Source: Candidatus Sulfotelmatobacter sp. (lineage in GTDB: Bacteria > Acidobacteriota > Terriglobia > Terriglobales > Acidobacteriaceae). From it: a DNA stretch of 42,330 nt. The notes beneath the pieces were generated by a model. It was not told the DNA's origin. It saw only the letters and a program-made list of their open reading frames with translations, and searched no databases. Location: contig JAICJP010000003.1 in the NCBI GenBank assembly GCA_025928375.1, forward strand, positions 1 through 42,330. The letters are read 5' to 3'. This document shows positions 3,863-36,302 of the stretch, in pieces. Positions within the stretch are counted from its first letter, which is position 1, and every line of letters starts with the position of its first letter. A program made the translations under genes and the position numbers.

Positions 3863-5224
3863 CTATTTCAGGACCGGCTTGTCGTCGATCCATTCAATTT
3901 GCTCCAGCGTAGCAGGCGCGACTGGCTGCTGGCGCGGGATTCTCAGCACCATCTTGCCGTTGCGAGTGGTGATCTCACCGCCATTGGCCAGCAACACCTT
4001 CAATCCCACCTGCGCTGTGTCTTCGGCGAGGACGTCAATTTCGTAGGAATCGGGAAGCCCGGCCAGCGTCTTATTCCAGTAGGTGTTGTGTAGGGGCTCG
4101 CGGTATTCGGCTGGAATGGCGTGGGCCCCGATCAGTGTTCCAAGAATTCCTGCGGCGTTCGAAGGATTGCAATCGGCATCCTGACCGCCGCGGGTGGCAT
4201 AGTTCATGGTCTTGTACCAGTCGCCTTCGCCATAGAGCAGGCCCATGACCACGTAGCCGCCGTTCAGCTTGGCATCGATGTTGAAGGGCTGCTTGTAGCC
4301 GTCGGGGCAATGATCGACCTCACCCCACTTCGCCTGCAGCAGGTGCCAGGTTTTCAGCCAGTCGTTGGGATTCTCGTCATGCCAGCGGATCACATCGCGA
4401 ATCAACTGCGCGTACAGGCTCTTGGCGGGAATCGCCTTCAGCCCGTTCTCTACCACCTCTCGAATGTTTTTCACGAAAAAGGCTTGGGTATACATCGCCG
4501 AAATGAACATCCCCCCATAGACGCCGTCGCCGTAATTCATGATGTGACCCATGCGTTCGCCGTAGCGGTTCGATACCTGGGGCATGCCCGGGGAGATCAT
4601 TCCGAAGACGTCAGACTCGATCTGAAAATCGATGTCGTCGGCGTGCAGGTTGTATCGCGGGTTACCGGAATCCGGCGGCAGGATGCCCTTGCGAATATTC
4701 TTCAGGCCGGCATCATTGGCATGCCAGACTTGCCGGATTTTGGCGTCCCACTCGTGCGCGACGGTTACAGGATCAACATCGATACCGTAGCGCCGCAGGC
4801 AGTAGAGAAATAGCAGATTGATGTAGATGTCGTCGTTGTCGGGAGCGCCGAAGCTGGGATGTTCCTTTTCGGAGTTGGCGATGAAGTCATGAATGATGAC
4901 GATCTTCTGATCGTCGGCTTCGCGGGTAATGGGTTCCCAGCTTTCCTGGCCGGGCTTATTGGCGGCTCGCGCCCGGTAAGCCTTCATGCGACTGGGCGAG
5001 AGAGGCCAATCGGTGATATCGAATCCGATGGGCGTGTTCTGGTATTGGAATTCCCATGGTTGGCCAAAGGTGACCCCGATCATCTTGCCCATCCACGCAC
5101 CCTGCACTTTGTCGAGGTATGTGTCCCAGGTCAACTCCCGCATGGGGGTGGCATTCTGGGCGTGCGATGTGCAACTAGCAGTCGTCGTGATCACCAGCAA
5201 AAGTAGCGGGACGAGTGGCCTCAT
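3863..5224 (-). CDS. Exported ADP-ribosylglycohydrolase-fold protein
   Basis: This is a 453-residue protein with a signal peptide (MRPLVPLLLLVITTTASC), where TASC resembles a lipobox, so it may be a lipoprotein. The remainder has the all-helical ARH fold signatures: GAWMGKMIGVTFG near the start of the mature part, an acidic block PDNDDIYINLLFL at about 128-140 where ARH enzymes have TDDT, and GGQDADCNPSNAAGILG near the C-terminus where they have DADT. These blocks hold the dimetal ligands in characterised ARHs. The export signal and altered blocks suggest the substrate is not intracellular ADP-ribosyl-arginine; a glycoside is possible. An SD-like GGAG precedes the ATG. It is the last gene of the trpS-to-hisC strand run, 44 nt after hisC. 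Confidence 0.8.
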   Translation of the reverse strand: MRPLVPLLLLVITTTASCTSHAQNATPMRELTWDTYLDKVQGAWMGKMIGVTFGQPWEFQYQNTPIGFDITDWPLSPSRMKAYRARAANKPGQESWEPITREADDQKIVIIHDFIANSEKEHPSFGAPDNDDIYINLLFLYCLRRYGIDVDPVTVAHEWDAKIRQVWHANDAGLKNIRKGILPPDSGNPRYNLHADDIDFQIESDVFGMISPGMPQVSNRYGERMGHIMNYGDGVYGGMFISAMYTQAFFVKNIREVVENGLKAIPAKSLYAQLIRDVIRWHDENPNDWLKTWHLLQAKWGEVDHCPDGYKQPFNIDAKLNGGYVVMGLLYGEGDWYKTMNYATRGGQDADCNPSNAAGILGTLIGAHAIPAEYREPLHNTYWNKTLAGLPDSYEIDVLAEDTAQVGLKVLLANGGEITTRNGKMVLRIPRQQPVAPATLEQIEWIDDKPVLK

Positions 5225-5268
5225 CGGGTCTCCGGCAAAGATAGCATTGGTGATGCGCAGGAAGCCGT

Positions 5269-6411
5269 CTATTGTCCCACAACGCGCGTGTCGGGAGACC
5301 TGCGAGCGATCTCCTGGGCGGCATGCAGGAGGGCATCATTCTGCTGGGGCGTGCCGATGGTGACGCGAATACATCCCGGTGCGCCCCAAGCCTCCAGGGG
5401 CCGCACGCTGATGCCCTGCCCACGAAGGCGAAGGGCAAAGGCGGCCGCCTCTTGACCTACGTTGCAATACAGGAAGTTTGCCCAGGTCGGGACCACATGA
5501 AAGCCCAATTCAGAAAGACCGACGCCCAGACTCTGAGCCTGTTCTGCGTTGTTGGCGAGTGTCTCCAGAACGTGATCTTCATCTGCGGTGGCGGCGAGCG
5601 CGGCAGCTTGCGCGACGGATGAAACTGAAAATGTATTTCGCATCCTTGCACAGTAAGCCATGAGTTCGGCGGGCCCCATGCCGTAACCGATGCGCAGGCC
5701 AGCCAGGCCGTGAACTTTCGAGAATGTCCTGAGCACGACCACATTTTCCGTTCCCCGCAGGTAGTCGAGTGACCGGGAATAGTTCACTTTGCGCTTCTCC
5801 GCAAAATGCGCGGCAAACTCGTAATACGCCTCGTCCAGCACGATGACGACATGGCCGGGGACCTGTGCAATGAACTGGTCGATCGACTCCGCATCGAGCA
5901 TCGTCCCGGTTGGATTGTTCGGATTTGCCAGGAAGATCAGGCGCGTGTGCTCGTTAATCAGGTCCAGGATGGCGGGAAGATTGATGTGGTCGCCACGCAT
6001 GGGCGCTTCGATCAGTTGCGCTCCGCTGGCACGCACTGCCATTCCATAAACGACGAACGAACGCTCGCTGGTAATCGCGTTGAGCCCGGGTCCGAGCAAA
6101 GTCTGGCAGAGTAGCGAGAGCATCTGCGTTGAGCCCGCGCTGATCAGGATCTGTTCGCCGGGAAGCTGGTGAACGTCTGCAAGCTTCCGGCGCAGCGGGA
6201 TGGAGTCGTCGTCGGGATAGAGATTCGAAGTATTCAGGGCGGCTGCTGCCGCTTCCAGAGCGAGCGGTGAAGGGCCAAACGGGTTTTCGTTGGCATCGAG
6301 CCGGATCACGGCAGATCCAACATTCGCCCTATCATCGTTGCGGGATGGGGAGGAAAAAAAGCCCAAGCTCTCGCGCGCGGGCAGTGACATCAGATCAAAG
6401 AATCGGGTCAT
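5269..6411 (-). CDS. hisC: Histidinol-phosphate aminotransferase family (PLP fold type I)
   Basis: This 380-residue class I/II aminotransferase is of the HisC type. The N-terminal LDANENPFGPSP is the HisC substrate-binding signature. ANPNNPTGT and VLDEAYYEF follow in the usual order. RTFSKVHGLAGLRIGYG contains the PLP-binding Lys, and the C-terminal GCIRVTIGTPQQND holds the carboxylate-binding Arg. The reaction is glutamate plus imidazole acetol phosphate to histidinol phosphate. No other his genes are nearby, so it may instead act on aromatic or other amino acids, as several HisC paralogues do. The gene starts 9 nt after the rluB stop, suggesting co-transcription with the upstream run. Confidence 0.85.
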   Translation of the reverse strand: MTRFFDLMSLPARESLGFFSSPSRNDDRANVGSAVIRLDANENPFGPSPLALEAAAAALNTSNLYPDDDSIPLRRKLADVHQLPGEQILISAGSTQMLSLLCQTLLGPGLNAITSERSFVVYGMAVRASGAQLIEAPMRGDHINLPAILDLINEHTRLIFLANPNNPTGTMLDAESIDQFIAQVPGHVVIVLDEAYYEFAAHFAEKRKVNYSRSLDYLRGTENVVVLRTFSKVHGLAGLRIGYGMGPAELMAYCARMRNTFSVSSVAQAAALAATADEDHVLETLANNAEQAQSLGVGLSELGFHVVPTWANFLYCNVGQEAAAFALRLRGQGISVRPLEAWGAPGCIRVTIGTPQQNDALLHAAQEIARRSPDTRVVGQ

Positions 6412-6420
6412 GGGGGCAGC

Positions 6421-7179
6421 TCATCGCAGGGTTTTCCTGTCCGTACCTTTGGTTGCCGATTTCAGGCGCTGCACTTCCTTCAGCGTAAGTTGACGAAATT
6501 CTCCTGGCGGCACATCCAGAGTGAGAGGGCCGTACCGAACCCTTTTAATTTTCTCGACATGGTGGCCAACCGCCTCAAACATGCGCCGGATCTGGCGATT
6601 GCGCCCCTCGATCAGGGTGATTTCGTACCAGGGATTCGCCGCTTCTTTGACCACGCGAACAGCAGCAGGAGCGGTGCGCACGCGCTTGCCGTCGTCGGTT
6701 GCTATGGACAACCCTTTGCGTAATTTCTCCAGGGCTTCTTCGCGGGGAGTGCCGGCGATCTTGACCAGGTAAGTCTTAGCCACGTGGGAAGCCGCCTTCA
6801 TGAGTTGGTTCGCCAGTTCTCCATCGTTGGTGAGGAGCAGTAGACCTTCGCTGGCGTAGTCGAGCCGTCCCACAGGATAGACGCGTCCTCGGATCCCGCG
6901 GAGCAGGTCCATGACTGTAGGCCGTTTCTGGGGATCACTCATCGTGGTGACGTAACCTTTGGGCTTGTTCAGCAGGAAATATGCATGACGTTGTTCGCTG
7001 GGCTGAAGCAGCTTGCCATTGACGCGGATGTGATCAGTTTCCGGATCAGCCTTGCTGCCCAGTTCGGTGACCGTGGTTCCATTGACCTTTACGTGGCCGG
7101 AACTGATCAATTCTTCGGCTTTGCGGCGGGAGGCGACTCCGGCGGCGGCGATGATCTTTTGCAGGCGTTCCGCAGGCAT
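6421..7179 (-). CDS. rluB: RsuA/RluB/RluE family rRNA pseudouridine synthase
   Basis: This 252-residue protein has an N-terminal S4 RNA-binding domain (RLQKIIAAAGVASRRKAEELI, then VKVNG) and a catalytic domain with the catalytic Asp in GRLDYASEGLLLLTNDG. KPKGYVTT and GRNRQIRRMFEAVGH are further family blocks. It isomerises a uridine in rRNA; RluB (23S helix 89 region) is the most likely subclass because scpA-scpB-rluB clusters are common in many bacteria, but RsuA or RluE cannot be excluded from sequence alone. It lies 136 nt downstream of scpB on the same strand. Confidence 0.9.
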   Translation of the reverse strand: MPAERLQKIIAAAGVASRRKAEELISSGHVKVNGTTVTELGSKADPETDHIRVNGKLLQPSEQRHAYFLLNKPKGYVTTMSDPQKRPTVMDLLRGIRGRVYPVGRLDYASEGLLLLTNDGELANQLMKAASHVAKTYLVKIAGTPREEALEKLRKGLSIATDDGKRVRTAPAAVRVVKEAANPWYEITLIEGRNRQIRRMFEAVGHHVEKIKRVRYGPLTLDVPPGEFRQLTLKEVQRLKSATKGTDRKTLR

Positions 7180-23466: not shown

Positions 23467-24372
23467 ATGTCCAGAGCCTTCCAGAAAAGGTCGAAGTATT
23501 TGGAGAGACGCCCGGATATGCGAAAGCGCCTGCAACTCGCACTGATGCTGACGGTCGGAACGACAATCGCGACCTCCTTGCCACTTCCCAACGCCTGGGC
23601 CGCTGAGGCAGACAGCTCCGGCCATGGGATCACCGCCACCGAAGAGCATGGCCGCAAGATCTATGTAGACGAGGACGCTCCAGCGAAGCCGCGGGTCACA
23701 CCGGCTCCGCAGTCCAAGCGCTCTTCACTGGTCTTCTGGAGCAGCAAAGAGAGCCGCTGGAAACCGGTGCCTTCGGCAGGTGCGCCCTCGATGCTGGCCG
23801 CGCGTTCGGCCGCGAAAGAAGTCACTCAGTATTTTGGTCACGACTCGGCTTCATCGGCCAACGCGAAGATCATGGCCGCCAATGCTCGTGGTCATCAGGC
23901 CTCGCCGGACGAGATCGATAACGCGGTGGTGATGGCTGCCGCCCGCCACAATGTGGATGCGAATCTGGTGCGGGCAGTCATCAAAGTGGAGTCAAACTTC
24001 AACGCCAACGCGGTCTCGAATAAGGGAGCGATGGGACTGATGCAGCTCATGCCCAAGACGGCACGCAGCTTGAACGTAAAGAATCCCTTTGATCCTCAGC
24101 AGAACGTCGATGCCGGGGTACGGCACTTGAAGTATTTGCTGCAAAACTACGGCGGCGACGTAAATCTGACGCTCGCGGCTTACAACGCCGGAGAAGGCGC
24201 CGTGGCTCGAAGTGCAGGCATACCGCATTTTGCCGAAACCCAGAATTACGTCCGCAAGATCACCAACCTGTACAACGGGAGATTTGATCTGACCCCATCG
24301 GGCGGATCACGGGAACCCGTGCGGGTGCAACGAGATGCGCGCGGGGTTCTGTACATCAGCAACACGGACTAG
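23467..24372 (+). CDS. Lytic transglycosylase, SLT domain
   Basis: This 301-residue secreted peptidoglycan lytic transglycosylase has a signal peptide (RKRLQLALMLTVGTTIATSLPLPNAWA), a variable linker, and a C-terminal Slt/LtgE-type lysozyme-like domain at about 148-275. Catalytic Glu175 is in VIKVESNFNANAVS, followed by GAMGLMQLMPKTA and AAYNAGEGAV, the three classic SLT motifs. It cleaves the MurNAc-GlcNAc bond to form 1,6-anhydroMurNAc. ATG 23467 has GGGAGG upstream at good spacing; ATG 23518 (MRKRLQ) would give a shorter signal peptide and is a real alternative. A near-consensus promoter at 23377-23405 lies upstream, and a cell-wall amidase follows downstream. Confidence 0.9.
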   Translation: MSRAFQKRSKYLERRPDMRKRLQLALMLTVGTTIATSLPLPNAWAAEADSSGHGITATEEHGRKIYVDEDAPAKPRVTPAPQSKRSSLVFWSSKESRWKPVPSAGAPSMLAARSAAKEVTQYFGHDSASSANAKIMAANARGHQASPDEIDNAVVMAAARHNVDANLVRAVIKVESNFNANAVSNKGAMGLMQLMPKTARSLNVKNPFDPQQNVDAGVRHLKYLLQNYGGDVNLTLAAYNAGEGAVARSAGIPHFAETQNYVRKITNLYNGRFDLTPSGGSREPVRVQRDARGVLYISNTD

Positions 24373-24457
24373 AATCTAAGCATCTGTTTAAGAGTCTCTC
24401 AGGTATCACGGCAGTTCAACTGCAACGACGGATCAGGACAGTAACGGACCGGCGACT

Positions 24458-26734
24458 TTGAACAAAACACTAAGCCAGCGTGGCTTGCGCTGTGGGGCGT
24501 TGCTTCTGTTGATGGCTGTCCCCTTGGTGCCGGCGCACGCCCGCACGCGGCACGGGCATTCTGAAGCCTGGGCCCGCGACCACTATGCCGCGGCCGACCG
24601 TATGCGCGAGGCGCTGAATGGACGTCCTCCCGGAGAGCGCAACCGCCGCGACTACCAGCGCGTTATCAACGCTTATCGCAACATCTACTATGGAGCGCCC
24701 ACTTCCGCTAAAGCGGATCCCAGCGCGGTAGCCGTAGCCGAGACGCTGGTGGAAATGGGCCGCCGCTTTGATGACAACTCCATCCTCAAGAAAGCCATCG
24801 CCCAGTACAAATTCCTCCGCCGCGAATATCCCGGCAGTAAGTACCGCTGCGACGCGCTGTTCACTATAGGCGAAATCTACAAGGATGACCTGAACGATCC
24901 CGAGCAGGCTCGTGCAGTATTCCAGGATTTCCTGAAACGTTATCCGCGCAACCGCCTCGCCGAAGATGCCGAGGAGGCGGTTGCCGAAATCGATCGCCAG
25001 GCTAAAGGCGCAAAAAAGGCCGACCCGAAGAAACAGTCCGCTGACGAAGAATCTGCGGCGCGGGATGAAACTGACCCCGGTGTGAAACCTACGGAAGACA
25101 ACTCGCGGGGTGACGCGAGTTTATTGCCTGGGGTCTCAGGCCATGCTTCCGAATCGCACGCACAACGCGTTGCGCGCGTGACTGCGATTCGCCACTGGTC
25201 TACCCCGGACTACACGCGGGTGGCGATTGATGTTGAAACCAACATCAAGTTCGGATCGCAACGCATCTCGCATCCGGACCGAATCTTCTTTGACCTACGC
25301 GACACGAAACTGGCCTCCACTTTGGTGGGCAAGAGTTTCGATGTGGACGATGGTTTTCTCAAGAAGATTCGGGTGGCTCAGTTCAAGCCGGGGCGCACGC
25401 GGGTCGTACTCGAAGTCGATGACTTGTCCGACTATGATGCTTTTCTGCTGCCGGAACCGTACCGGCTGATCATTGACATTCATGGGAAAAAGAGTCAGAG
25501 CGCCCGCCGGAAGCATTCCCGAGACGCGGAGATGAAAGAGGCTGCCGCCATGACGGCGGACGTCGAGGCGCCCCCCAGAGCGGGTTCGTCGAAAACTGAT
25601 AGCGACCGCGCCGACACGGCAACCGCCGGGGCGAATTCCGACCCGAGCAAATTGGCGGACAGAACGGCTGATGACCTCAAGGAAGACTTGCGCGCAGCCG
25701 CCGGGAAGGCACCCGTCACCACCCAGGATGTGAATGACGAAGCCACAATTCACCCGAAAGACGTTGCCGGCAAGAGCGGACTGCCCGATCTGCCGCGCAA
25801 GGTCAACACCAAGGCCGAGACCCCAGCGCCGACCAAAGTGATCGTAGACAATGATGACGAGGACGACACGACCGCAACGGCGGAGAAGCACAGTCCACTT
25901 GTGGCCCGCACCAAGTCCTCGCGCGCAGCTTCGAATCGCAAGGCCAGAGATTTCGATGCCCGCGAAGCCAAACCTACGGCGGGCGGTGACCGCTCCCTGA
26001 TCCGCGCGTTGGGCCTAAAGATCGGCAAAATCGTGATCGATCCCGGCCACGGAGGTCACGACACGGGAACCATCGGCCCGAACGGCCTGCGAGAGAAGGA
26101 CCTCGTCTTGGAAGTGGGACGTCGCCTGGGTAAGCTACTGGAAGCGCGACTGGGCGCCGAGGTGGTCTACACCCGCAAGGACGACACCTTCATCCCCCTG
26201 GAAACCCGTACCGCGATCGCTAACCAGCAGCGCGCGGATTTATTCATCTCGATTCACGCCAACTCCAGTCATGATCCGAACGCGCGCGGGGTTGAAACTT
26301 ATTATCTGAACTTCACATCCTCGCCGGAGGCACTGGAAGTCGCGGCTCGTGAGAATGCGGTTTCGGAAAAATCGATCTACGAACTGCAGGATCTGGTGAA
26401 GAAGATTGCGCTCAAAGAAAAGATTGAAGAGTCGCGCGAATTTGCAGCGGACATACAGGCTTCGCTGCACAGCGGACTGGCTACCAAGAGTCCGTCGATC
26501 CGCAATCGCGGAGTAAAGAAAGCGCCATTCATCGTCTTGATAGGCGCGAATATGCCCTCGATCCTGGCGGAAATCTCCTTTGTCTCAAACCCCTCTGACG
26601 AACACCGTCTGAAGACCAGCGAGTACCGGCAACGCATCGCAGAGTCCCTCTACCGCGGAATCGCCAAGTACGCCGATGGCCTCAGCGGCGTCAAGATGGC
26701 CAGCAAGATCGACAAAACCACTGGCAATAACTGA
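24458..26734 (+). CDS. N-acetylmuramoyl-L-alanine amidase with TPR-like and AMIN domains
   Basis: This 758-residue protein probably starts at TTG 24458, giving a signal peptide (LRCGALLLLMAVPLVPAHA). The domain order is: a YbgF/TPR-like helical region at about 100-180 (AIAQYKFLRREYPGSKY, ARAVFQDFLKRYPRNRL); an AMIN domain at about 240-345 (YTRVAIDVETNIKFGSQRIS, LIIDIHGK); a low-complexity linker; and Amidase_3 from about 520 (KIVIDPGHGGHDTGTIGP, ISIHANSS, SILAEISFVSNPSDE). The zinc His and Glu positions of AmiC-type enzymes are present. It cleaves the peptide stem from peptidoglycan. Family enzymes usually lack the N-terminal TPR-like part. It lies 85 nt after the lytic transglycosylase, so the two probably act together in wall remodelling. 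Confidence 0.92.
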   Translation: MNKTLSQRGLRCGALLLLMAVPLVPAHARTRHGHSEAWARDHYAAADRMREALNGRPPGERNRRDYQRVINAYRNIYYGAPTSAKADPSAVAVAETLVEMGRRFDDNSILKKAIAQYKFLRREYPGSKYRCDALFTIGEIYKDDLNDPEQARAVFQDFLKRYPRNRLAEDAEEAVAEIDRQAKGAKKADPKKQSADEESAARDETDPGVKPTEDNSRGDASLLPGVSGHASESHAQRVARVTAIRHWSTPDYTRVAIDVETNIKFGSQRISHPDRIFFDLRDTKLASTLVGKSFDVDDGFLKKIRVAQFKPGRTRVVLEVDDLSDYDAFLLPEPYRLIIDIHGKKSQSARRKHSRDAEMKEAAAMTADVEAPPRAGSSKTDSDRADTATAGANSDPSKLADRTADDLKEDLRAAAGKAPVTTQDVNDEATIHPKDVAGKSGLPDLPRKVNTKAETPAPTKVIVDNDDEDDTTATAEKHSPLVARTKSSRAASNRKARDFDAREAKPTAGGDRSLIRALGLKIGKIVIDPGHGGHDTGTIGPNGLREKDLVLEVGRRLGKLLEARLGAEVVYTRKDDTFIPLETRTAIANQQRADLFISIHANSSHDPNARGVETYYLNFTSSPEALEVAARENAVSEKSIYELQDLVKKIALKEKIEESREFAADIQASLHSGLATKSPSIRNRGVKKAPFIVLIGANMPSILAEISFVSNPSDEHRLKTSEYRQRIAESLYRGIAKYADGLSGVKMASKIDKTTGNN

Positions 26735-26752
26735 TCCAACCGATTTGTTGAA

Positions 26753-26851
26753 GTGAAGTGGACTCCGCGTGGATTCAATCGCATCAAGAGGCACAAAAGC
26801 AAACGCGAAAGCCGCAAGCAGCGCAAACTCAAGCGCCAACACCTGCTATAG
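26753..26851 (+). CDS. Candidate 32-residue highly basic peptide
   Basis: This is a short GTG-started ORF, too small for the ORF track, lying 18 nt after the amidase stop and in the same frame as it. About 17 of 32 residues are Lys, Arg or His, including RIKRHKSKR and RKQRKLKRQ. Arg is mostly CGC and Lys is mixed, which suits the GC-rich genome better than the alternative frames. The overall look recalls the tiny basic ribosomal proteins of the bS22/THX or AURKAIP1-like type, but I cannot show homology. There is no Shine-Dalgarno sequence before the GTG. It could instead be a former C-terminal tail of the amidase cut off by a TGA, or chance. Confidence 0.35.
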   Translation: MKWTPRGFNRIKRHKSKRESRKQRKLKRQHLL

Positions 26852-26972
26852 TCGGGTCAAAGATGCCTGTGAAAAGCGCCTCTAAATCTACATGATCTAC
26901 ATGCTTTGCCGGATTTCACAATCGCCAAGGCATGCATAAGGTGAACGCAAGCGTTCCAAGTAGTTCCGATCT

Positions 26973-28667
26973 ATGTCAGACGTCCCTTCTACGGTCCCCA
27001 CCCTTATAGCCTTGAGGCAACTTCTTCGAGGAAGATATCGGAGTCTGTTGCTCGTTGCGGTGGTACTTGCCGCATGCGCCTTTGTGATCACTCGCGGAAT
27101 TCACAACGGGGAATTTAATTTCAATACGGATGAAACCATTCACGCCAGCACGGGCCTGTACTTCGCTGACTTCCTGCGCGACCTGCCGCTGCGTCATCCG
27201 CTGCAGTACACCTTCCGCTACTACGCTCAGTATCCGGCGCTCGGCGTGTTGCACTGGCCACCCATCTTCCACATGTTCGAAGGACTGGCATTCTTGCTTT
27301 TTGGTTCCACGGTGGCGGTCGCTCGCGCAACCATCCTCATGTTCGCGCTGCTGGGGATCTACTTTCTGTTCCGGCTGGTGGAGTACGTAGAGAATCGGCT
27401 GGCGGCAATCATCGCCTCTCTTCTGTTCGCGTTTTTTCCCCTTACTCTCCTGTTCGAAAAAGTTGTAATGCTCGAGATTCCGGCGCTCTCGTTGGCGATA
27501 GGAGCGATCTATTTCTGGATTCGTTACCTGAAGGAAGAACGAAAGGCGGACATTTACCGCTTCGCTTTCTTTGCTTGCGCCGCATTATTGACCAAGCAGA
27601 CGGTGGCGTTTCTGATTCCGGTGTGTGTCCTGGCGGCCGTCCTGACGAAGCGGATGACGCAAATATTCCTGCAGAAGACCACCTGGTATGTGGCGGCCGT
27701 CTGCGGAGTGGTGCTGAGTCCATATTATCTGGCGCTGTCGCATTTCCACGGCGCGGCCTTGGCCAAGAGCGTGGAAGCTACTCATCCGATCACGCTGCTG
27801 CAGCGGGCGACTTTTTATTGGCGCGCTTTACCGGGACAGATCACATGGGTAGTACTGGCACTCAGTGTGCTGGGCATCGTGACGTATTGCGCCCGCAAGG
27901 AATGGGAAAAGCTGGCCTTCGCCATGGCTTGGATCTTAGGTTGTTATGTCACCCTGACGCCGATCGGATTCCAGGCGCCCAGATTCATTATCTACTGGCT
28001 GCCGGCGTGGGCTTGGCTCGCAGCGGTGCCGTTTACTGTGTCGCTGGGGCGGAAAGTCCCTCGAACCCTTCAGACGGCCGCCGCGATTGTGTTGCTGAGC
28101 GCCCAGGTGCTGTGGGCGCTATCGTATGAGCGCCCGAGTGTAACCGGCTATGGCTCTGCGGCGCGCCGCCTGGTGAGCATGGCAAAATCAGGTTACGTCC
28201 TTTTTGACGGACCGCTGCCGGGTAACTTCATTTTTTTTGTGCGGGCATCGGATCCCAGCCGCCGCATTGGTGTCTTGCGTAAAGCGCTCTATGTAACCAT
28301 GCTCATCAAAGACGAAGGAAGTGAGGAGCTAGTGCATGGCTTCGATGGCATCCGCAATGTGCTGGCAGCCGATGGCGTCCGCTACATCGTAGTTGCGGAA
28401 AACACGCCGACATCGTTTCCTGTGCAGCAAACGCTCCGCGACCTGCTTCACAAAGATCATCAGTTCCGCCTCCGGGCGGTTTTCCCGGTCAGGGGCTGTG
28501 ATCCAATACGGCCTGACACATTTCTTGCCATCTACGAGAATCTCGAGGCCGGCGGCGCAGCAGCACCCTACCTGCACGTCAAAATGCTGACCACCCGCCA
28601 GGACCTGGATGTTCCTTTGGGCACGCTAGGGCCGCCTCCGTACTCGTTCAATGTTTCCAGACGGTAG
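26973..28667 (+). CDS. GT39-like membrane glycosyltransferase (GT-C fold)
   Basis: This is a 564-residue polytopic membrane protein. An early helix (LLLVAVVLAACAFVIT) is followed by a periplasmic loop with the acidic pair FNTDETIHASTG, matching the DE motif used by GT-C enzymes of the ArnT/PMT family, then RHPLQYTFRYYAQYP and HWPPIFHMFEGLAF. About ten further helices follow, and a soluble C-terminal domain of about 170 residues (SYERPSVTGYGSAARRLV). Such enzymes transfer sugars from polyprenyl-phosphate donors to lipid or protein at the outer face of the membrane. The acceptor here is unknown. It lies downstream of the cell-wall amidase but is separated by 238 nt. Confidence 0.8.
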   Translation: MSDVPSTVPTLIALRQLLRGRYRSLLLVAVVLAACAFVITRGIHNGEFNFNTDETIHASTGLYFADFLRDLPLRHPLQYTFRYYAQYPALGVLHWPPIFHMFEGLAFLLFGSTVAVARATILMFALLGIYFLFRLVEYVENRLAAIIASLLFAFFPLTLLFEKVVMLEIPALSLAIGAIYFWIRYLKEERKADIYRFAFFACAALLTKQTVAFLIPVCVLAAVLTKRMTQIFLQKTTWYVAAVCGVVLSPYYLALSHFHGAALAKSVEATHPITLLQRATFYWRALPGQITWVVLALSVLGIVTYCARKEWEKLAFAMAWILGCYVTLTPIGFQAPRFIIYWLPAWAWLAAVPFTVSLGRKVPRTLQTAAAIVLLSAQVLWALSYERPSVTGYGSAARRLVSMAKSGYVLFDGPLPGNFIFFVRASDPSRRIGVLRKALYVTMLIKDEGSEELVHGFDGIRNVLAADGVRYIVVAENTPTSFPVQQTLRDLLHKDHQFRLRAVFPVRGCDPIRPDTFLAIYENLEAGGAAAPYLHVKMLTTRQDLDVPLGTLGPPPYSFNVSRR

Positions 28668-28836
28668 ATGTCCGAACTTTTCTATTCCACCCCGAAGGCG
28701 AAACGGTTCCAGACCAGGTTGGAATTAGGGCAGCCGAACGCGCAGCAATCTTGACCGTATTGGGCCTGATACGACTCGGACGAACAACCGCCTGGGTTCT
28801 TACACGTTCCGGGCTTGAAATCTTCTGATCGTCGCG

Positions 28837-28884
28837 AAAAAAATGCCCACTTCAACGTCGCAAAGCGCGAAGTTGAAGTGGGCA
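28837..28884 (-). terminator. Intrinsic terminator of the TonB receptor gene
   Basis: On the minus strand, 13 nt after the receptor stop, TGCCCACTTCAAC and GTTGAAGTGGGCA form a perfect 13-bp stem. The 15-nt loop can pair further through TCGC/GCGA. Seven T residues follow directly. This is a textbook Rho-independent terminator. Confidence 0.85.
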
Positions 28885-28897
28885 CCTTCACTTCGGG

Positions 28898-31800
28898 CTA
28901 GAAGGTATACCGCAGGCTGAACTGCATCGTCCTCGGGACCGCAAAGGTCTCTAGGCTGGTGAATGCTCCTACGTTACTGCTTGTCAGGTCGTTCACGGGC
29001 AGGCCACGGTTGACGTTGTTCAGGGCATTGAAGTTCTGCCAGGCGAACGCCAGTGCCTGGCGTTCCGTGATCTGGAAAGTCTTGCCCAACGACCAGTCCG
29101 CTTCAAAAAATCCCGGGCCGCGCAGGGAATTTCGCCCGGCGTTTCCCTCCCGGAAGGCATACGTTGGATCGCTTAGCACAGTTGCGATCGGAACATAGGC
29201 ACCAGGATTGAAACCCGCTCCCTGTGGGATATTGGCATGCGGATTCCCGGTCTCGAAAGCTTTCAACGGGAAATTGGAATTGAGCGAAGTAGTGGTGCCA
29301 TAGATTGGAGTGAATGAACGTCCGCTGTACGCGGTGGTCATGCCAGTGAACTGCCATCCACCCAGGATGAGACGTTCGGGCCGGTTCATATTAGTGAAGA
29401 ATTTGCGTCCGGGCCCGACGGGAATCTGGAGTACGTGGCCTAGAGAGAAGGCATGGGTGCGATCCCATCCCGATGGCCCGTAGTCGGCGCGGAGGTTGTA
29501 AGGGTTGAACTCGCGCGAATTGTCGCCGTAATTGTTATTGCGCGAATACGTGTATTGGCCGGTTAGAGAATACCAGGCCGACATGCGCTTCTCCGCCGAG
29601 ATCTGCAGGCTGTTGTAGTTCGAACTGAGATCGTTGGCGAAAGCGGTGATGTCCTGGGTGTAGCCAAAGGTCGAGAAATACGGGCGGTTGTTATTGGACA
29701 ATCCAGGGCCTGGAATGGGCGCATTGGCATTATAAAAGTCATACAGATGCCTTGCCTGGTTCCCCACGTACGCTACTTGCAAGCTGAAGTTCTTTCCTAA
29801 CTCGTGCTGAATCGCGACATTGTACATCTCTACGTAGGCGTTCTTGCGGTTCAGAGGGACCCCGGTTGCGCTAACATCCGTGGGAAGCGGAAGCAAACCA
29901 TTGGCAGGAACGGCAGGTGGAGTCGGCAACGGCGGTCCCTGCGACAAAGTGAAGGGCAAAGCAGTGCCAGTCGAGGCCGTGAGTGACTGCGCATAATCGA
30001 CCGGATAATTGTGGCTGATCTGGATGCTGAAGAAGTTGGGGAAGTAACTGCGGCCGTATCCCGCCCGCACCACGGTTTTCGGTGTCAGTTGGTAGGCAAT
30101 GCCGATGCGGGGCGCGAAGTTGTCTTTGCGGGTGTTGATGTTGGTATATCGGTCCACGCCGCCCAAACCTGCCACCATTAGCATTCCCGTTTGCAGATTG
30201 AAGTTGGCGCCATCGCCGCGGTGCGCGTAGGGGGCGGTATACAGTTCCCAGCGCAAGCCGAGCGAGAGCGTCAGCTTGGGAGTAACCCGCCAGCGGTCTT
30301 GCACGAACGCGAATACATCCTGTTCATATTCCTTGGGAATGCCCAGAAACTGGAAACGCTGGAAGGTGCTGGGGATGCCGAGCAGGAAAGATTCAAATGC
30401 GTCGCTGGTCGTGCCATACGGAGTCGCGACGCCGGAGTTAAACCCGAACACACCGCGTTGGCTGAAATCGCTGCTGGACCGATAGTTCACGACCCAGCGG
30501 TAATCACCGCCAAACTTGATCTCGTGCTTGCCGAGTTCTTTTGTAAGAACGGGCGAGAGTTGGTGTAGTTGCTCCAGTTCGTGAAGCGGCGCATTGGTAT
30601 TGACCGTAGTGCCGAACTGAAAACTGCTGGAGGGGAACCCAGCAACCGTGGTACCGCTCAGAGCGCTGCCGTTGAAGATGAAATTCGAGAGGCCGCTGGT
30701 ATTGGCAGTTCCGAGGTTAATCCCGGGAATGCCAACCGTGGTGGCGGTATTCGTCCCGTAGTCCACCGGCAGATTATCGATCTGGTAGCGGAAATAGCTG
30801 TAGCGGAGGTTGAGCAGCCATGAAGGGCCAAAGACGTGGTTCCAATTCACCGCGCCGTTATGATTTTGTCCGTGAGAGTTGCCGGGCCCGTAAAGGTTGG
30901 AGAAGCCGGGTCCGCCAAGAAGCCCGAAGATCGCCGGCGAGTCAATGGTGTCGCGGAACAGGTCGTAGCGAACGAACAAACGATTGTTGGGATTCAGGTT
31001 CCAGTCGACACGGGCATCGTACTGGTCCGAGTTGAATTTCACACTGCCCGTGCCAAGGTAAGTGTTGCTGCCAATATTGGGCAGCGGGATGCCCGCGAGG
31101 AGTTTGGAGGCTACTGGGCTGATGGCGCCGGCCGGAAGAACCGGGCCACCCAGTGCGGTCAGATCGCCGGTACGTTCGGCAGCCGTCGGTACAAATTCCT
31201 GGAAGCCGCCGCCCAGGCGTTCTCGTTGTCCCTGGTAGGTTCCGAAAAAGAATAACTTATCGCGGATGACGCGCCCGCCCACCGAACCTCCAAACTGGTT
31301 GAAGCGCAAGGGCTGCTGGCGAATGCTTTCGGTGTAGGGATCCCGCGCATTGAAGAAGTTATTGCGCAGGACCTCAAACAAGTCGCCGTGGAAATCATTG
31401 CTTCCCGACTTCGTTGTGTAGGAGACAAAAGAGCCCCCAGAGCGTCCGAACTCGGCGTCGTAGTTGCTCGTCGTAACCTTCATCTGGTCGAGGGAGTCGG
31501 GTGGAGGATTCACTACCTGAATGCCCAGGACGGCGTCCATATCATCAGCGCCATCGATCTGACGGTTGGTGAACCCGAACAACAAACCATTGGTGTTATT
31601 GGCCTGCCCGCCCTGGGGGTTCTCCGTACCGGCAATGTCATACGTGTTGCGTACGGTGCCGGGTGCGAGCAGCTCCAATTGCGTAACATTCTGGCTGATG
31701 GTTGGGATGTCGGTCAGCTCGCGGGAAGTCACCGTGGTGCTGATTTCGGCGCGATCCGTGACCAGAACCGGGGCCTGATCGGCAACGACTTGAACCGTCT

Positions 31801-32191
31801 GCGAGGCTTCGCCCAATTGCATCTGGACATTGATTCGCGTCTCCCGGTCTACATCCACCACGATGTTGTTCTGTTGAGTGGGCTGGAATCCGGTCGCAGA
31901 AACGATGACGTTATACGTGCCGTTCGCGAGTTGGGTGCGCGTGAACAGGCCCTCTGCATTGGTGTTAGTGGTAACTGAAGAATTATGTTGAGTGTCGGTG
32001 ATCTTTACCGTGGCGTTCGGAATCACGGCGCCGGTCGGATCGGTTACTTGACCGGTCAGGGTGCCAGAGGTGGCCTGCGACCAGGCAGTTGGGGCAGCGA
32101 ACGAAAGTAAAGCGGCGGTAACGACAAGGGCGGCACACCTCCACGGGCTGACCCGTGGGGCCATTGAAGAGCTATCTACAGCGCGCGTCAT
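28898..32191 (-). CDS. Oar-like TonB-dependent outer-membrane receptor
   Basis: This is a 1097-residue outer-membrane protein. ATG 32191 is preceded by GAGAGG; the track start at 32245 adds 18 residues without support. The signal peptide is ALVVTAALLSFAAPTAWSQ. A carboxypeptidase-regulatory-like domain follows (GTLTGQVTDPTGAVIPNATV, then TYNVIVSATGF), then a plug (LELLAPGTVRN, SGGSFVSYTTKSGSNDFHG) and a long beta-barrel ending in FSLRYTF, the terminal Phe expected for barrel assembly. Such giant receptors are numerous in Acidobacteriota and probably bind large or polymeric substrates. There is no SusD partner or TonB gene here, so the ligand is unknown. A strong intrinsic terminator lies just downstream. 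Confidence 0.93.
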   Translation of the reverse strand: MTRAVDSSSMAPRVSPWRCAALVVTAALLSFAAPTAWSQATSGTLTGQVTDPTGAVIPNATVKITDTQHNSSVTTNTNAEGLFTRTQLANGTYNVIVSATGFQPTQQNNIVVDVDRETRINVQMQLGEASQTVQVVADQAPVLVTDRAEISTTVTSRELTDIPTISQNVTQLELLAPGTVRNTYDIAGTENPQGGQANNTNGLLFGFTNRQIDGADDMDAVLGIQVVNPPPDSLDQMKVTTSNYDAEFGRSGGSFVSYTTKSGSNDFHGDLFEVLRNNFFNARDPYTESIRQQPLRFNQFGGSVGGRVIRDKLFFFGTYQGQRERLGGGFQEFVPTAAERTGDLTALGGPVLPAGAISPVASKLLAGIPLPNIGSNTYLGTGSVKFNSDQYDARVDWNLNPNNRLFVRYDLFRDTIDSPAIFGLLGGPGFSNLYGPGNSHGQNHNGAVNWNHVFGPSWLLNLRYSYFRYQIDNLPVDYGTNTATTVGIPGINLGTANTSGLSNFIFNGSALSGTTVAGFPSSSFQFGTTVNTNAPLHELEQLHQLSPVLTKELGKHEIKFGGDYRWVVNYRSSSDFSQRGVFGFNSGVATPYGTTSDAFESFLLGIPSTFQRFQFLGIPKEYEQDVFAFVQDRWRVTPKLTLSLGLRWELYTAPYAHRGDGANFNLQTGMLMVAGLGGVDRYTNINTRKDNFAPRIGIAYQLTPKTVVRAGYGRSYFPNFFSIQISHNYPVDYAQSLTASTGTALPFTLSQGPPLPTPPAVPANGLLPLPTDVSATGVPLNRKNAYVEMYNVAIQHELGKNFSLQVAYVGNQARHLYDFYNANAPIPGPGLSNNNRPYFSTFGYTQDITAFANDLSSNYNSLQISAEKRMSAWYSLTGQYTYSRNNNYGDNSREFNPYNLRADYGPSGWDRTHAFSLGHVLQIPVGPGRKFFTNMNRPERLILGGWQFTGMTTAYSGRSFTPIYGTTTSLNSNFPLKAFETGNPHANIPQGAGFNPGAYVPIATVLSDPTYAFREGNAGRNSLRGPGFFEADWSLGKTFQITERQALAFAWQNFNALNNVNRGLPVNDLTSSNVGAFTSLETFAVPRTMQFSLRYTF

Positions 32192-32260
32192 GAGTACCTC
32201 TCGGGGGTCTACAACAGGGGAGACCGTAATTTTTCGTGAGTGCAAGGTTAGATGTCAGGT

Positions 32261-32289
32261 AACGTAGTAGGGCTGCCGCCTTAACACAA
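32261..32289 (-). promoter_or_regulatory. Candidate promoter of the TonB receptor gene
   Basis: On the minus strand TTGTGT and TACGTT are 17 nt apart, with a predicted start near 32254 and a leader of about 60 nt before ATG 32191. The -10 is only a moderate match. Confidence 0.35.
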
Positions 32290-32397
32290 AGGACCTAACT
32301 TTTGGATTACGGGAAAACCATGGCAGGGCGTTCCCGAGTGCAGCTCGTATCCTACCGCGCAGGTGCTTGAGGGGCGCACTCCAGGCCCATCACGCCT

Positions 32398-32425
32398 TTG
32401 AGAGTTCCCTCGCTTCCGCTAAGAT
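32398..32425 (+). promoter_or_regulatory. Promoter of mqnC
   Basis: TTGAGA (32398-32403) and TAAGAT (32420-32425) are separated by 16 nt. Transcription would begin near 32432, just upstream of ATG 32451, which argues against the earlier start at 32367. Confidence 0.5.
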
Positions 32426-32450
32426 ATATAGTTCTGTGGAATTCGATCCC

Positions 32451-33497
32451 ATGCCCTTAACAAAACAGCAAGCGCTGGAGATGTTTGAGTCCGACGACCT
32501 GATTGGGATCGGCATGGAAGCCGATGCGGTGCGCCGCAAGCTGCATCCCGAGGGCGTCGTCACCTACATCATTGACCGCAACATCAATTACACCAACTTC
32601 TGCACGGAGTATTGCACTTTCTGCGCCTTTTACCGCCCGCTAAAAGGGCCAGCAGCCAAGGAAGGATACATTCTCGATTTCGACACCATCTACGAGAAGA
32701 TCGGCGAGACGGTGGAACTCGGCGGCACTGGCGTGCTGATGCAGGGCGGTCTGCATCCGGACCTGAAGATCGACTGGCACGAGAAGATGCTGCGCGGGAT
32801 CAAGGAACGGTTCCCCAGGATTCATCTGCATTGCTACTCGGCCTCGGAGATCATCGCGATCGCTGAGTACAGCGCACTCAGCATTCGTGACACCATTTTG
32901 CGATTGCGGGATGCGGGGCTGGATTCGATCCCGGGTGGCGGCGCCGAAATCTTGGATGACGAAGTGCGGTACAAGATCGCGCGGCTGAAGTGCCTGACCG
33001 AAGACTGGATCAACGTGCATCGCACGGCGCATCAGATCGGAATGCGCACCACCGCGACTATGATGTTCGGCGTGGGAGAAAAGTACGAGCATCGCATCAA
33101 TCATTTTCAAAAACTTTATGAGCTGCAGGAAGAAACGGGTGGCTTTACCGCCTTCATCCCCTGGAGTTTTCAGCCGGCAAACACGGCGCTTGGCGGACGG
33201 CATTGGGATGAAGCGACCGCCGTGGAGTATTTGAAAGTGTTGGCGATCTCGCGGATTTATCTTTCCAACTTTCTTAACGTGCAATCCAGTTGGGTCACGC
33301 AGGGATTGAAAGTCTGCCAGATGGGGTTGCGGTTTGGCGGGAATGACGTTGGGTCGGTGATGTTGGAAGAAAATGTGGTGCGTGCCGCGGGCGTGACGAA
33401 TTGCACGACGGAAGAAGAGTTGCGGCGCATCATTCGCGATGCCGGGTTCCGTCCTGCGCAGAGAGACACTTTGTACCGGCAGTATTTTCTAAATTAG
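32451..33497 (+). CDS. mqnC: Cyclic dehypoxanthine futalosine synthase (MqnC)
   Basis: This 348-residue radical SAM enzyme of the futalosine route to menaquinone cyclises dehypoxanthine futalosine. The iron-sulfur motif is CTEYCTFC (Cys51, 55, 58), preceded by RNINYTNF, a pattern shared by MqnC, MqnE and the CofG/CofH enzymes. GILMQGG-type sequence (GVLMQGGLHPDLKIDW), SIPGGGAEIL and MMFGVGEKYEHR identify the family, and FIPWSFQPANT fits MqnC. I use ATG 32451 rather than the track's 32367 because a promoter (TTGAGA-16-TAAGAT) lies between them. No other mqn genes are in the window. The organism therefore probably makes menaquinone by this route. Confidence 0.92.
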   Translation: MPLTKQQALEMFESDDLIGIGMEADAVRRKLHPEGVVTYIIDRNINYTNFCTEYCTFCAFYRPLKGPAAKEGYILDFDTIYEKIGETVELGGTGVLMQGGLHPDLKIDWHEKMLRGIKERFPRIHLHCYSASEIIAIAEYSALSIRDTILRLRDAGLDSIPGGGAEILDDEVRYKIARLKCLTEDWINVHRTAHQIGMRTTATMMFGVGEKYEHRINHFQKLYELQEETGGFTAFIPWSFQPANTALGGRHWDEATAVEYLKVLAISRIYLSNFLNVQSSWVTQGLKVCQMGLRFGGNDVGSVMLEENVVRAAGVTNCTTEEELRRIIRDAGFRPAQRDTLYRQYFLN

Positions 33498-33630
33498 GCA
33501 TTTTCAGCGACCGGAACTGAAGCCGCCGCCGGTCTCATCTTGTAACGTGGTCAAGGCCCGCTCTACGGTCTCCGTTTGCGGCAAGCCAGGGTAGAAGCGC
33601 ACGGGCGGCCTCGATTATGATGATTTTGTT

Positions 33631-33843
33631 ATGGCATTTCCGATCAAAACGTGCGCGGTCTGTGGGGAAGAATTCGAACTGAAGCCGGGGAAACCCGGGT
33701 TTGCGAATCGCTGTCCGGAGTGCAGCGAAGAAGAGGCTGCTAATGCTGGCGGCAACGCGGGCCACGGATGGAAGGGCGACAAAGGAGCCAATGCTGCTCG
33801 CCGGGAAGCGATGCGCAATCTGCTCTATCGCAAGGACAGTTGA
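33631..33843 (+). CDS. Small zinc-ribbon protein
   Basis: This 70-residue protein has two CxxC knuckles (TCAVCGEEF and NRCPECSEE) spaced as in a zinc ribbon, followed by a Gly/Ala/Asn-rich segment and a basic helix (NAARREAMRNLLYRKD). There is no membrane or signal segment, so it is cytosolic. Such small ribbons often bind nucleic acid or ribosomes, but nothing specific is visible. It follows mqnC by 133 nt with its own possible TATGAT-type -10 element just before the start. The conserved Cys pattern makes it a likely real gene. Confidence 0.65.
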   Translation: MAFPIKTCAVCGEEFELKPGKPGFANRCPECSEEEAANAGGNAGHGWKGDKGANAARREAMRNLLYRKDS

Positions 33844-33879
33844 ATAGAACAGAGTTCTCGCCAAAGCTGAGGCTTTCTG

Positions 33880-33915
33880 GGGCCGGGCGGCCCAAGGGGT
33901 CGTCCCTACGTGGTT
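33880..33915. repeat. GC-rich interspersed repeat at the end of the DUF1648-like gene
   Basis: The segment around GGGCGGCCCAAGGGG and TCGTCCCTACGTGG resembles the one at 41603-41648 (GGACAGCCCACGGGGGTGTCCCTACATGG), with about 7 differences over 31 positions by eye. The minus-strand gene stop at 33906 lies inside it. Confidence 0.4.
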
Positions 33916-34409
33916 CTTACCGTTTTCAGGCTGCGGCGCATCCTGCACACCGCATTGCCGATTAGCACGATCAATAGGGAGGCGCCTCCCGCCAGGCCCC
34001 ATGTTTCATTCACATTCCAGCCCAGACCCGAAAGCAAGACCAGTATTTGTGAATACGAGAGAAGTGTGACGATGACGATCATGACGTACAGATAAGAGGG
34101 CTGCGACGAGTTCATCTGCAAGCGCCTGACCGGGATGCGAGGAACTGCAATAAACATCAGTAGGATCCCCATCATCAGCCCGGGTGTGTATAGGAACAGA
34201 GACCATTTGGGGCCGAAAGCGTTGCTGTCACCCTGGAGCGGAACCACACTGGGCAGCTGCGGGTAAAGCAGGAGCGTCGGCAGGGCACTGAGCAGAATTA
34301 GTGCGGCTGCCGTCACATAGTAGCGCCGGAGAATTGGGATTGCACTTACCTGAGTCGGCTCGCCAATCTGCGTTGCAACTTCCGGCGGATGCTCTGTAAA
34401 TTTGAACAT
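33906..34409 (-). CDS. DUF1648-like integral membrane protein
   Basis: This is a 167-residue protein from ATG 34409 (MFKFTEHPPEVATQ); the track start at 34457 is a TTG with an unlikely extension. There are four hydrophobic helices: AAALILLSALPTLLLY, YTPGLMMGILLMFIAV, YVMIVIVTLLSYSQILVLLSG and ASLLIVLIGNAV. Between the first two, YPQLPSVVPLQGDSNAFGPKW resembles the YPxLPxxIPxHxxxxGxPD motif of DUF1648/SdpI-family membrane proteins, with Gln in place of His. SdpI relatives confer immunity to toxic peptides or sense them; that role is only a family hint here. It is divergent from the following secreted protein. Confidence 0.65.
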   Translation of the reverse strand: MFKFTEHPPEVATQIGEPTQVSAIPILRRYYVTAAALILLSALPTLLLYPQLPSVVPLQGDSNAFGPKWSLFLYTPGLMMGILLMFIAVPRIPVRRLQMNSSQPSYLYVMIVIVTLLSYSQILVLLSGLGWNVNETWGLAGGASLLIVLIGNAVCRMRRSLKTVRTT

Positions 34410-34613
34410 TGGGCACAAATACTGAACCCCAGGGACACTACCGTCCACCAATGACAACGCTCAGCCTGCTTTCTGGGGGCATTCGGATTATGTCTGCTGG
34501 ATTTCCGCCTGTCAACGGAACCACAGGACATGGGCGCCTCAGTCTCGATAAAATTGATTGGCGCCAGTAGACTCCTCTTGTATGCCGCTTGCAGACTCTC
34601 GCGACGTTCCCCA

Positions 34614-36302
34614 ATGAACCTGGTCTCCCGATTCTTTTGTATGGCTGTGCTGGGTAGTTGTGCCCTCGCGCAGCAGTTCGGGGTCGTGCCAACGTCCCAG
34701 AAAGCCGCAATCGAAGGGATCGTTACCAAGGATCCCAGCGGGGAACCCGTGAAGAAGGTTCTGGTCGAATTGATTGCTGAGAATCAAAAACAAGGTGGCG
34801 ACTACACCGGGACGACTGGGCCGGACGGTGCCTTTCGCATCGAGAACATCCTGCCCGGGCGTTACCGCTTATTTGCGGAGCGCACAGGGTTTCTGGACAT
34901 CGATAAGCATCACGGCAGGTCGGAAGGGCGAGTCCTCACCCTCCGACCGGGCGAGGACGTTAAGGATCTGCAGATCCGCTTGCAGGCTGCGGCAGTGCTA
35001 CGGGGACGAGTCACCGACGAAGACGGGGACCCGCTGGCCGGGGCTGAGGTCAGCGCACTGCGTCAGACTTTCGTGACCGGGCACAAACACTGGGAGCAGG
35101 TCGGATCGGAGCGCACAAATGATTTGGGCGAGTACCGGATTGCGAATCTGCCCGCCGGAAGCGTCGTCGTTTCGGTGAATCCTCCTCCCGATTTCAAAAA
35201 CCTGATCGAGTCCGCTGGGGCAGCTGGCGAGGGAAAAAATTCGGGCGCGGGGGATAACGCGCCGGCGGCCGCATATCAGGCGACTTACTATCCCGGGACA
35301 CCGGACCGGAGCCAGGCCATGCCCATTCAATTGCATGCTGGCGATGAGTTTCCCGCCAACTTCTCTTTGACGCCTGGTCCGAGCTTGAGCATTCGCGGAC
35401 AGGTGGTCAACCTTCCGCCACGAACCACGGCGACGATCATGCTGCAGTCGCGCGATTTCCGGCTGGTAACCAGCGGGACCGAGATGCACAAGGACGGTAG
35501 CTTCGTCATTCGCGATGTTTCTCCGGGCAGTTACCTGCTTTTGGCTAGCGTCGAGGGATCCGCCGTGCCCATGATCGCGCGGCAAACTCTGGAAGTGGGT
35601 TCGAGCAATGTCGAAGGGTTGCGGCTTTCACCCCAGCCCGGAGCGACCGTGCGGGGACGCTTGCGCCTCGAGAGTTCGGGAAAACGATTTGATCCGGACC
35701 AGGTTTATCTGGTACTGCAGCCGGTAGACGGACAAGATGACGAGGTCGCAATTCCGGGCGCCAGTTTCTCGAATCTAGCGCATGTGGCAGCCGGTGGAGA
35801 GTTCGTATGGAGTGATGTGCCTCCGGGAAACTACTACGTGCAGATTCTGGGGAACGGCAGCGGCGCCAATGAAGACTGGTTTTTGAAAACAGTTCTCTCG
35901 GGGACGCGCGATGTAGGTGAATCGGGAATCGCCGTGAGTGGCGGGACGGTTTTTCTCGACCTGGTGGCTAGCGCGAACGGCGCTGTCGTGGAGGGAGTCG
36001 CGGGCGACTCCAAAGGCCAGCCGGTGGCGAACGCGGTGGTCGTTGCGGTCCCGGAGTCGCGGATGCGCGGGCGCATGGATCAATATCGCCAGACTGTAAG
36101 CGACCAGAATGGCCACTTCAGCTTGCGGGGAATCCGCGGCGGGACTTACACGCTTTTCGCCTGGGAGAGTGTGGATGGGCAAGCCTACTACAATCCGGAA
36201 TTTCTGAAGAGCTGCGAGGACCAGGGACAGGCCTTGCAGCTGAGTGAAGCCGATCGCAAGACGGTGCAGTTAACGGTGATTGCTGCCGGCGATGAGCAGT
36301 AA
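34614..36302 (+). CDS. Secreted protein of carboxypeptidase-regulatory-like (Ig-fold) domains
   Basis: This 562-residue protein begins at ATG 34614 with a signal peptide (MNLVSRFFCMAVLGSCALAQ); the track start at 34530 adds a non-conserved leader. Several beta-sandwich repeats are visible: IEGIVTKDPSGEPVKKVLVEL to PGRYRLFAERTGF, LRGRVTDEDGDPLAGAEVSA to LPAGSVVVSV, IRGQVVNLPPRTTATI to SPGSYLLLASV, and VEGVAGDSKGQPVANAVVVA to RGGTYTLFAWE. These match CarboxypepD_reg-like folds, common in Acidobacteriota as free-standing proteins. No enzyme motif is seen, so a binding or surface structural role is likely. It lies upstream of, but separated by 113 nt from, the PIG-L cluster. Confidence 0.8.
   Translation: MNLVSRFFCMAVLGSCALAQQFGVVPTSQKAAIEGIVTKDPSGEPVKKVLVELIAENQKQGGDYTGTTGPDGAFRIENILPGRYRLFAERTGFLDIDKHHGRSEGRVLTLRPGEDVKDLQIRLQAAAVLRGRVTDEDGDPLAGAEVSALRQTFVTGHKHWEQVGSERTNDLGEYRIANLPAGSVVVSVNPPPDFKNLIESAGAAGEGKNSGAGDNAPAAAYQATYYPGTPDRSQAMPIQLHAGDEFPANFSLTPGPSLSIRGQVVNLPPRTTATIMLQSRDFRLVTSGTEMHKDGSFVIRDVSPGSYLLLASVEGSAVPMIARQTLEVGSSNVEGLRLSPQPGATVRGRLRLESSGKRFDPDQVYLVLQPVDGQDDEVAIPGASFSNLAHVAAGGEFVWSDVPPGNYYVQILGNGSGANEDWFLKTVLSGTRDVGESGIAVSGGTVFLDLVASANGAVVEGVAGDSKGQPVANAVVVAVPESRMRGRMDQYRQTVSDQNGHFSLRGIRGGTYTLFAWESVDGQAYYNPEFLKSCEDQGQALQLSEADRKTVQLTVIAAGDEQ

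Follow-up and report, generated by a model that had tools for sequence, protein, structure and literature searches.

The window analysed here, a 42,330-nucleotide stretch of DNA from Candidatus Sulfotelmatobacter sp., carries a gene for a cell wall amidase that is followed by a short spacer and by genes for a glycosyltransferase and a protein resembling TonB-dependent receptors. A small, strongly basic open reading frame is located in the spacer. The features that matter for the following argument are:

24458..26734, plus strand: N-acetylmuramoyl-L-alanine amidase gene (Pfam: TPR, AMIN, Amidase_3)
26735..26972, no strand: lineage-specific spacer containing the open reading frame, 238 bp, 49% GC, with only short chance matches in relatives
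26735..32370 (bounds approximate), no strand: segment of about 5.6 kb that is missing from the same site in the sister MAG AA151
26753..26851, plus strand: basic 32-codon open reading frame, VKWTPRGFNRIKRHKSKRESRKQRKLKRQHLL, with GTG start and TAG stop; likeliest not a gene
26973-28667, plus strand: PMT_2-type glycosyltransferase gene (Pfam), within the 5.6 kb segment
28898-32245, minus strand: large TonB-dependent-receptor-like gene, within the 5.6 kb segment

Immediately 5' of the TPR-AMIN-Amidase_3 amidase gene lies a lytic transglycosylase (SLT) gene (the pair spans 23467-26734). This SLT-amidase pair is conserved across the genus; the gene 3' of the amidase varies.

The 32-codon frame, which runs from GTG 26753 to TAG 26851, has the same phase as the amidase stop codon (TGA 26732-26734). 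No other stop occurs in this phase between 26735 and 26851, and reading from 26732 gives a stop, SNRFVEVKWTPRGFNRIKRHKSKRESRKQRKLKRQHLL and a second stop. Lys, Arg and His together account for 16 of the 32 residues and for 13 of 20 in the core. The original prediction, which had described a 32-codon basic ORF in amidase phase with about half of its residues being Lys, Arg or His, was therefore exact on this point. CGC is used for five of the seven Arg codons, and GC3 is 0.69 as compared with 0.68 for the long coding sequences of the genome.

The shared phase and the stop-free stretch from 26735 to 26851 speak for the proposed idea that the frame encodes a cationic tail with which the amidase binds the wall, and which is either translated when ribosomes read through the TGA or has been severed by a nonsense change. 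Comparison of amidase C-termini contradicts this idea. The window comes from a MAG of the Acidobacteriota, and the amidase has its relatives in MAGs assigned to Candidatus Sulfotelmatobacter and elsewhere in the Terriglobia. Altogether 39 C-termini, that of the window included, all end within a few residues of the motif GLSGVK.ASK.DK.AGQ, without a basic continuation. Their stop codons vary (TAG, TAA or TGA), and the frames 3' of the stop in the other 38 are mutually unrelated, mostly non-basic and in no case comparably basic. In the closest relative among the genomes compared, MAG AA151 (QHVR01000055.1, here L111), the amidase is 91% identical and ends with TGA at the same place, followed by LTASFQVF.... 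As the C-terminal motif is shared by all 39 amidases, the gene regularly ends at TGA 26732-26734, which is thus neither the product of a nonsense change nor a place of programmed readthrough. We regard an amidase tail as extremely improbable.

In AA151 the amidase gene is directly followed by a gene that we take, from its sequence, to be mqnC, and the DNA corresponding to window position 26735 to about 32370 is missing between the two. By blastn, positions 1785-3825 of L111 correspond to window positions 24685-26725 and positions 3916-6831 to 32381-35293. The 32-codon frame sits at the left edge of the segment of about 5.6 kb that is thereby delimited. The best relatives of the glycosyltransferase encoded in the segment are 44% identical, and a search of 40 relatives for the TonB-dependent-receptor-like gene gave nothing at E <= 1e-150. 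Since the genes of the segment are rare in relatives, the comparison favours its gain in the lineage of the window over its loss in the sister. The spacer lies within this segment and its DNA has no counterpart in 60 relatives, so that the frame is hardly an ancient gene retained throughout the clade; a search of plasmids did not reveal a counterpart either. The spacer and its surroundings, including the segment edge, showed neither repeats nor sigma-70-type promoters. The possibility that the spacer specifies a structured RNA was rejected, as there was no Rfam match and the predicted fold was not unusual (z-score 0.56).

The peptide itself was likewise without recognizable relatives. With tblastn, no match in 60 near genomes, 36 of them from Candidatus Sulfotelmatobacter, had an E value below 0.26 when the self-match was excluded, and in 399 genomes of the class (398 plus that of the window) the best outside match reached E 0.024 per genome, a value to be expected by chance when 399 genomes are searched. 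This best match in the class (L081, 48% identity) is antisense to a different long gene, which by eye resembles kdsB. The weak matches in relatives and in the class were single, scattered over unrelated frames and in many cases interrupted by stops, and were rejected as chance. An orthologue from the same genus, even at only 60% identity, would obviously have stood out in the search. The peptide had no match among phages, plasmids and viral contigs, no meaningful one in Pfam, NCBIfam, PHROGs and PDB, and no convincing one in the DNA upstream of relatives of the glycosyltransferase gene. Its sole family match, to MucB_RseB_C, had an E value of 0.2, lay below the family cut-off and was discarded. 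A lack of frame conservation in related genomes had originally been named as evidence against a gene, and the frame is indeed not conserved, the underlying DNA itself being absent from relatives. Because homologous DNA was found in no genome searched, Ka/Ks is not computable; this absence argues against an old gene.

A tiny ribosomal-type protein had also been proposed, and this proposal is unsupported: a homologue was found neither in the genus nor in the class, family searches gave no meaningful match, and searches with the models for COX24_C and Thx miss the locus. Ribosomal peptides are conserved clade-wide. The frame resembles bS22, a member of the AURKAIP1-COX24 family (PF08213), in its length of about 33 amino acids and its very basic composition; as an analogy, bS22 may be called fair in size and charge. 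In Cutibacterium acnes bS22 has 33 amino acids, and bS22-type ribosomal peptides contain 55-65% positively charged residues (PMC10085706). The frame differs in that the peptide does not match COX24_C (PF08213) at E <= 10 and, unlike bS22 in its clades, is not conserved. Searches with COX24_C returned nothing at E <= 1 in the window's own genome and nothing above the family cut-off in 40 relatives. The likeness to bTHX is confined to being tiny and basic: the peptide has no similarity to the Thx family (PF17070; no match at E <= 10), the own genome contained no match at E <= 1, and nothing in this genome or in 30 relatives pointed to the locus of the frame.

No Shine-Dalgarno pairing that could serve as a ribosome-binding site was found for the 32-codon frame. 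Pairing of the region upstream of GTG 26753 with the anti-Shine-Dalgarno sequence is calculated at +0.3 kcal/mol as against a median of -5.9 kcal/mol for long ORFs, and all 167 of the 167 long ORFs score better. Leaderless translation, or translation independent of a Shine-Dalgarno sequence, may be conceivable.

Codon choice constitutes the main evidence against chance. The synonymous-codon score of the frame is +0.166 bits per codon, which places it at the 99.2nd percentile among 1,736 short ORFs classed as spurious and at the 81st among pieces of true coding sequences, and the score is negative for both other forward frames at the site. The original impression that the codons look genuine, in contrast to those of the other frames, is thus borne out, and we estimate the resulting likelihood ratio at about 10. 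This ratio has to be weighed against the number of spurious short ORFs in a genome, which runs to tens of thousands, and it is further offset by the fact that the frame was singled out for its appearance in the first place. When the spacer was shuffled 1,000 times with its dinucleotides preserved, at least 13 Lys, Arg or His in 20 residues arose only once, so the stretch is locally unusual, which likewise counts against chance. In 252 kb of the genome, one of 1,737 ORFs of 25-60 amino acids consists of basic residues by at least half, namely the 32-codon frame itself; extrapolated from these 252 kb to 4.5 Mb, the rate of about one per 250 kb implies roughly 18 comparably basic short ORFs per genome. 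Equally basic stretches of 20 residues occur about 63 times per Mb when any frame is considered. Genome-wide, the basic composition is therefore not beyond chance. A further point against chance is that the Lys content of the frame is higher than that of typical out-of-frame basic stretches, in which Arg and His prevail.

Coding-like codon choice is also what would be expected of a dead C-terminal remnant, that is the basic tail at the 3' end of a gene that was cut by the rearrangement placing the 5.6 kb segment. A stretch that once was coding would account for genuine-looking codons without a start signal, and it is consistent with this origin that homology with the sister genome breaks at the amidase stop and that the frame, devoid of a Shine-Dalgarno sequence, stays open from 26735, at the segment edge, as far as 26851. 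That edge, however, lacks repeats, and searches of 60 relatives, 398 class genomes, phages and plasmids revealed no intact gene ending in ...KRESRKQRKLKRQHLL, a basic tail of 38 residues being a weak probe for this purpose. On balance, we consider such a remnant unlikely.

The same codon choice, together with the 16 basic residues among 32, would fit a real orphan protein restricted to the species, such as a peptide that binds nucleic acids and whose translation needs no Shine-Dalgarno sequence, and a content of about one half basic residues comes near the 55-65% reported for the bS22-type ribosomal peptides (PMC10085706). Against this stands that the peptide is missing from all other genomes of the genus that were searched as well as from the AA151 locus, while ribosomal peptides are conserved in their clades; furthermore, the locus matches neither COX24_C nor Thx, and a Shine-Dalgarno site is absent. 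We deem an orphan protein quite unlikely, and its more specific form, a small basic protein that arose recently in this species at the margin of a newly acquired 5.6 kb segment and is translated without a Shine-Dalgarno sequence, very doubtful. Translation of the peptide would make this an instance of gene birth, for which the comparison gives nothing in support.

In the absence of both a homologue and a usable ribosome-binding site, a chance frame is the likeliest explanation, rather than a hidden ribosomal protein or an amidase tail. We therefore think that the frame probably arose by chance in the lineage-specific spacer that separates the amidase gene from the glycosyltransferase gene, a possibility that the original prediction had listed third and that best fits the lack of homologues, the lack of a Shine-Dalgarno sequence, the conserved end of the amidase gene, the absence of the segment from the sister genome and the expected number of comparably basic short ORFs. 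It shares with spurious small intergenic ORFs its shortness, the lack of homologues and of a ribosome-binding site, and the location in a fast-changing spacer, but differs in a codon choice that surpasses 99% of the spurious short ORFs in this genome. A purine-rich stretch (AAG, AAA, CGC and GAA triplets) would by accident have been free of stops in the amidase phase, and its translation would then read as rich in Lys and Arg. Translation at a useful level is not expected, and we infer that the frame is not translated. With a chance frame, neither a hidden ribosomal protein nor an amidase tail has to be accounted for at the locus, and the case shows that the margin of a lineage-specific DNA segment can give rise to a basic frame whose codons look convincing.

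A separate observation concerns the region beyond the amidase gene in other genomes. Many relatives (L029, L030, L032-L035, L037, L038, L040 and L042) carry a conserved motif, GGAAACTTTT...TGTGGTCTAATTA, 20-180 bp past the amidase stop and immediately before the next gene. This motif, which is absent from the window, looks like a promoter.
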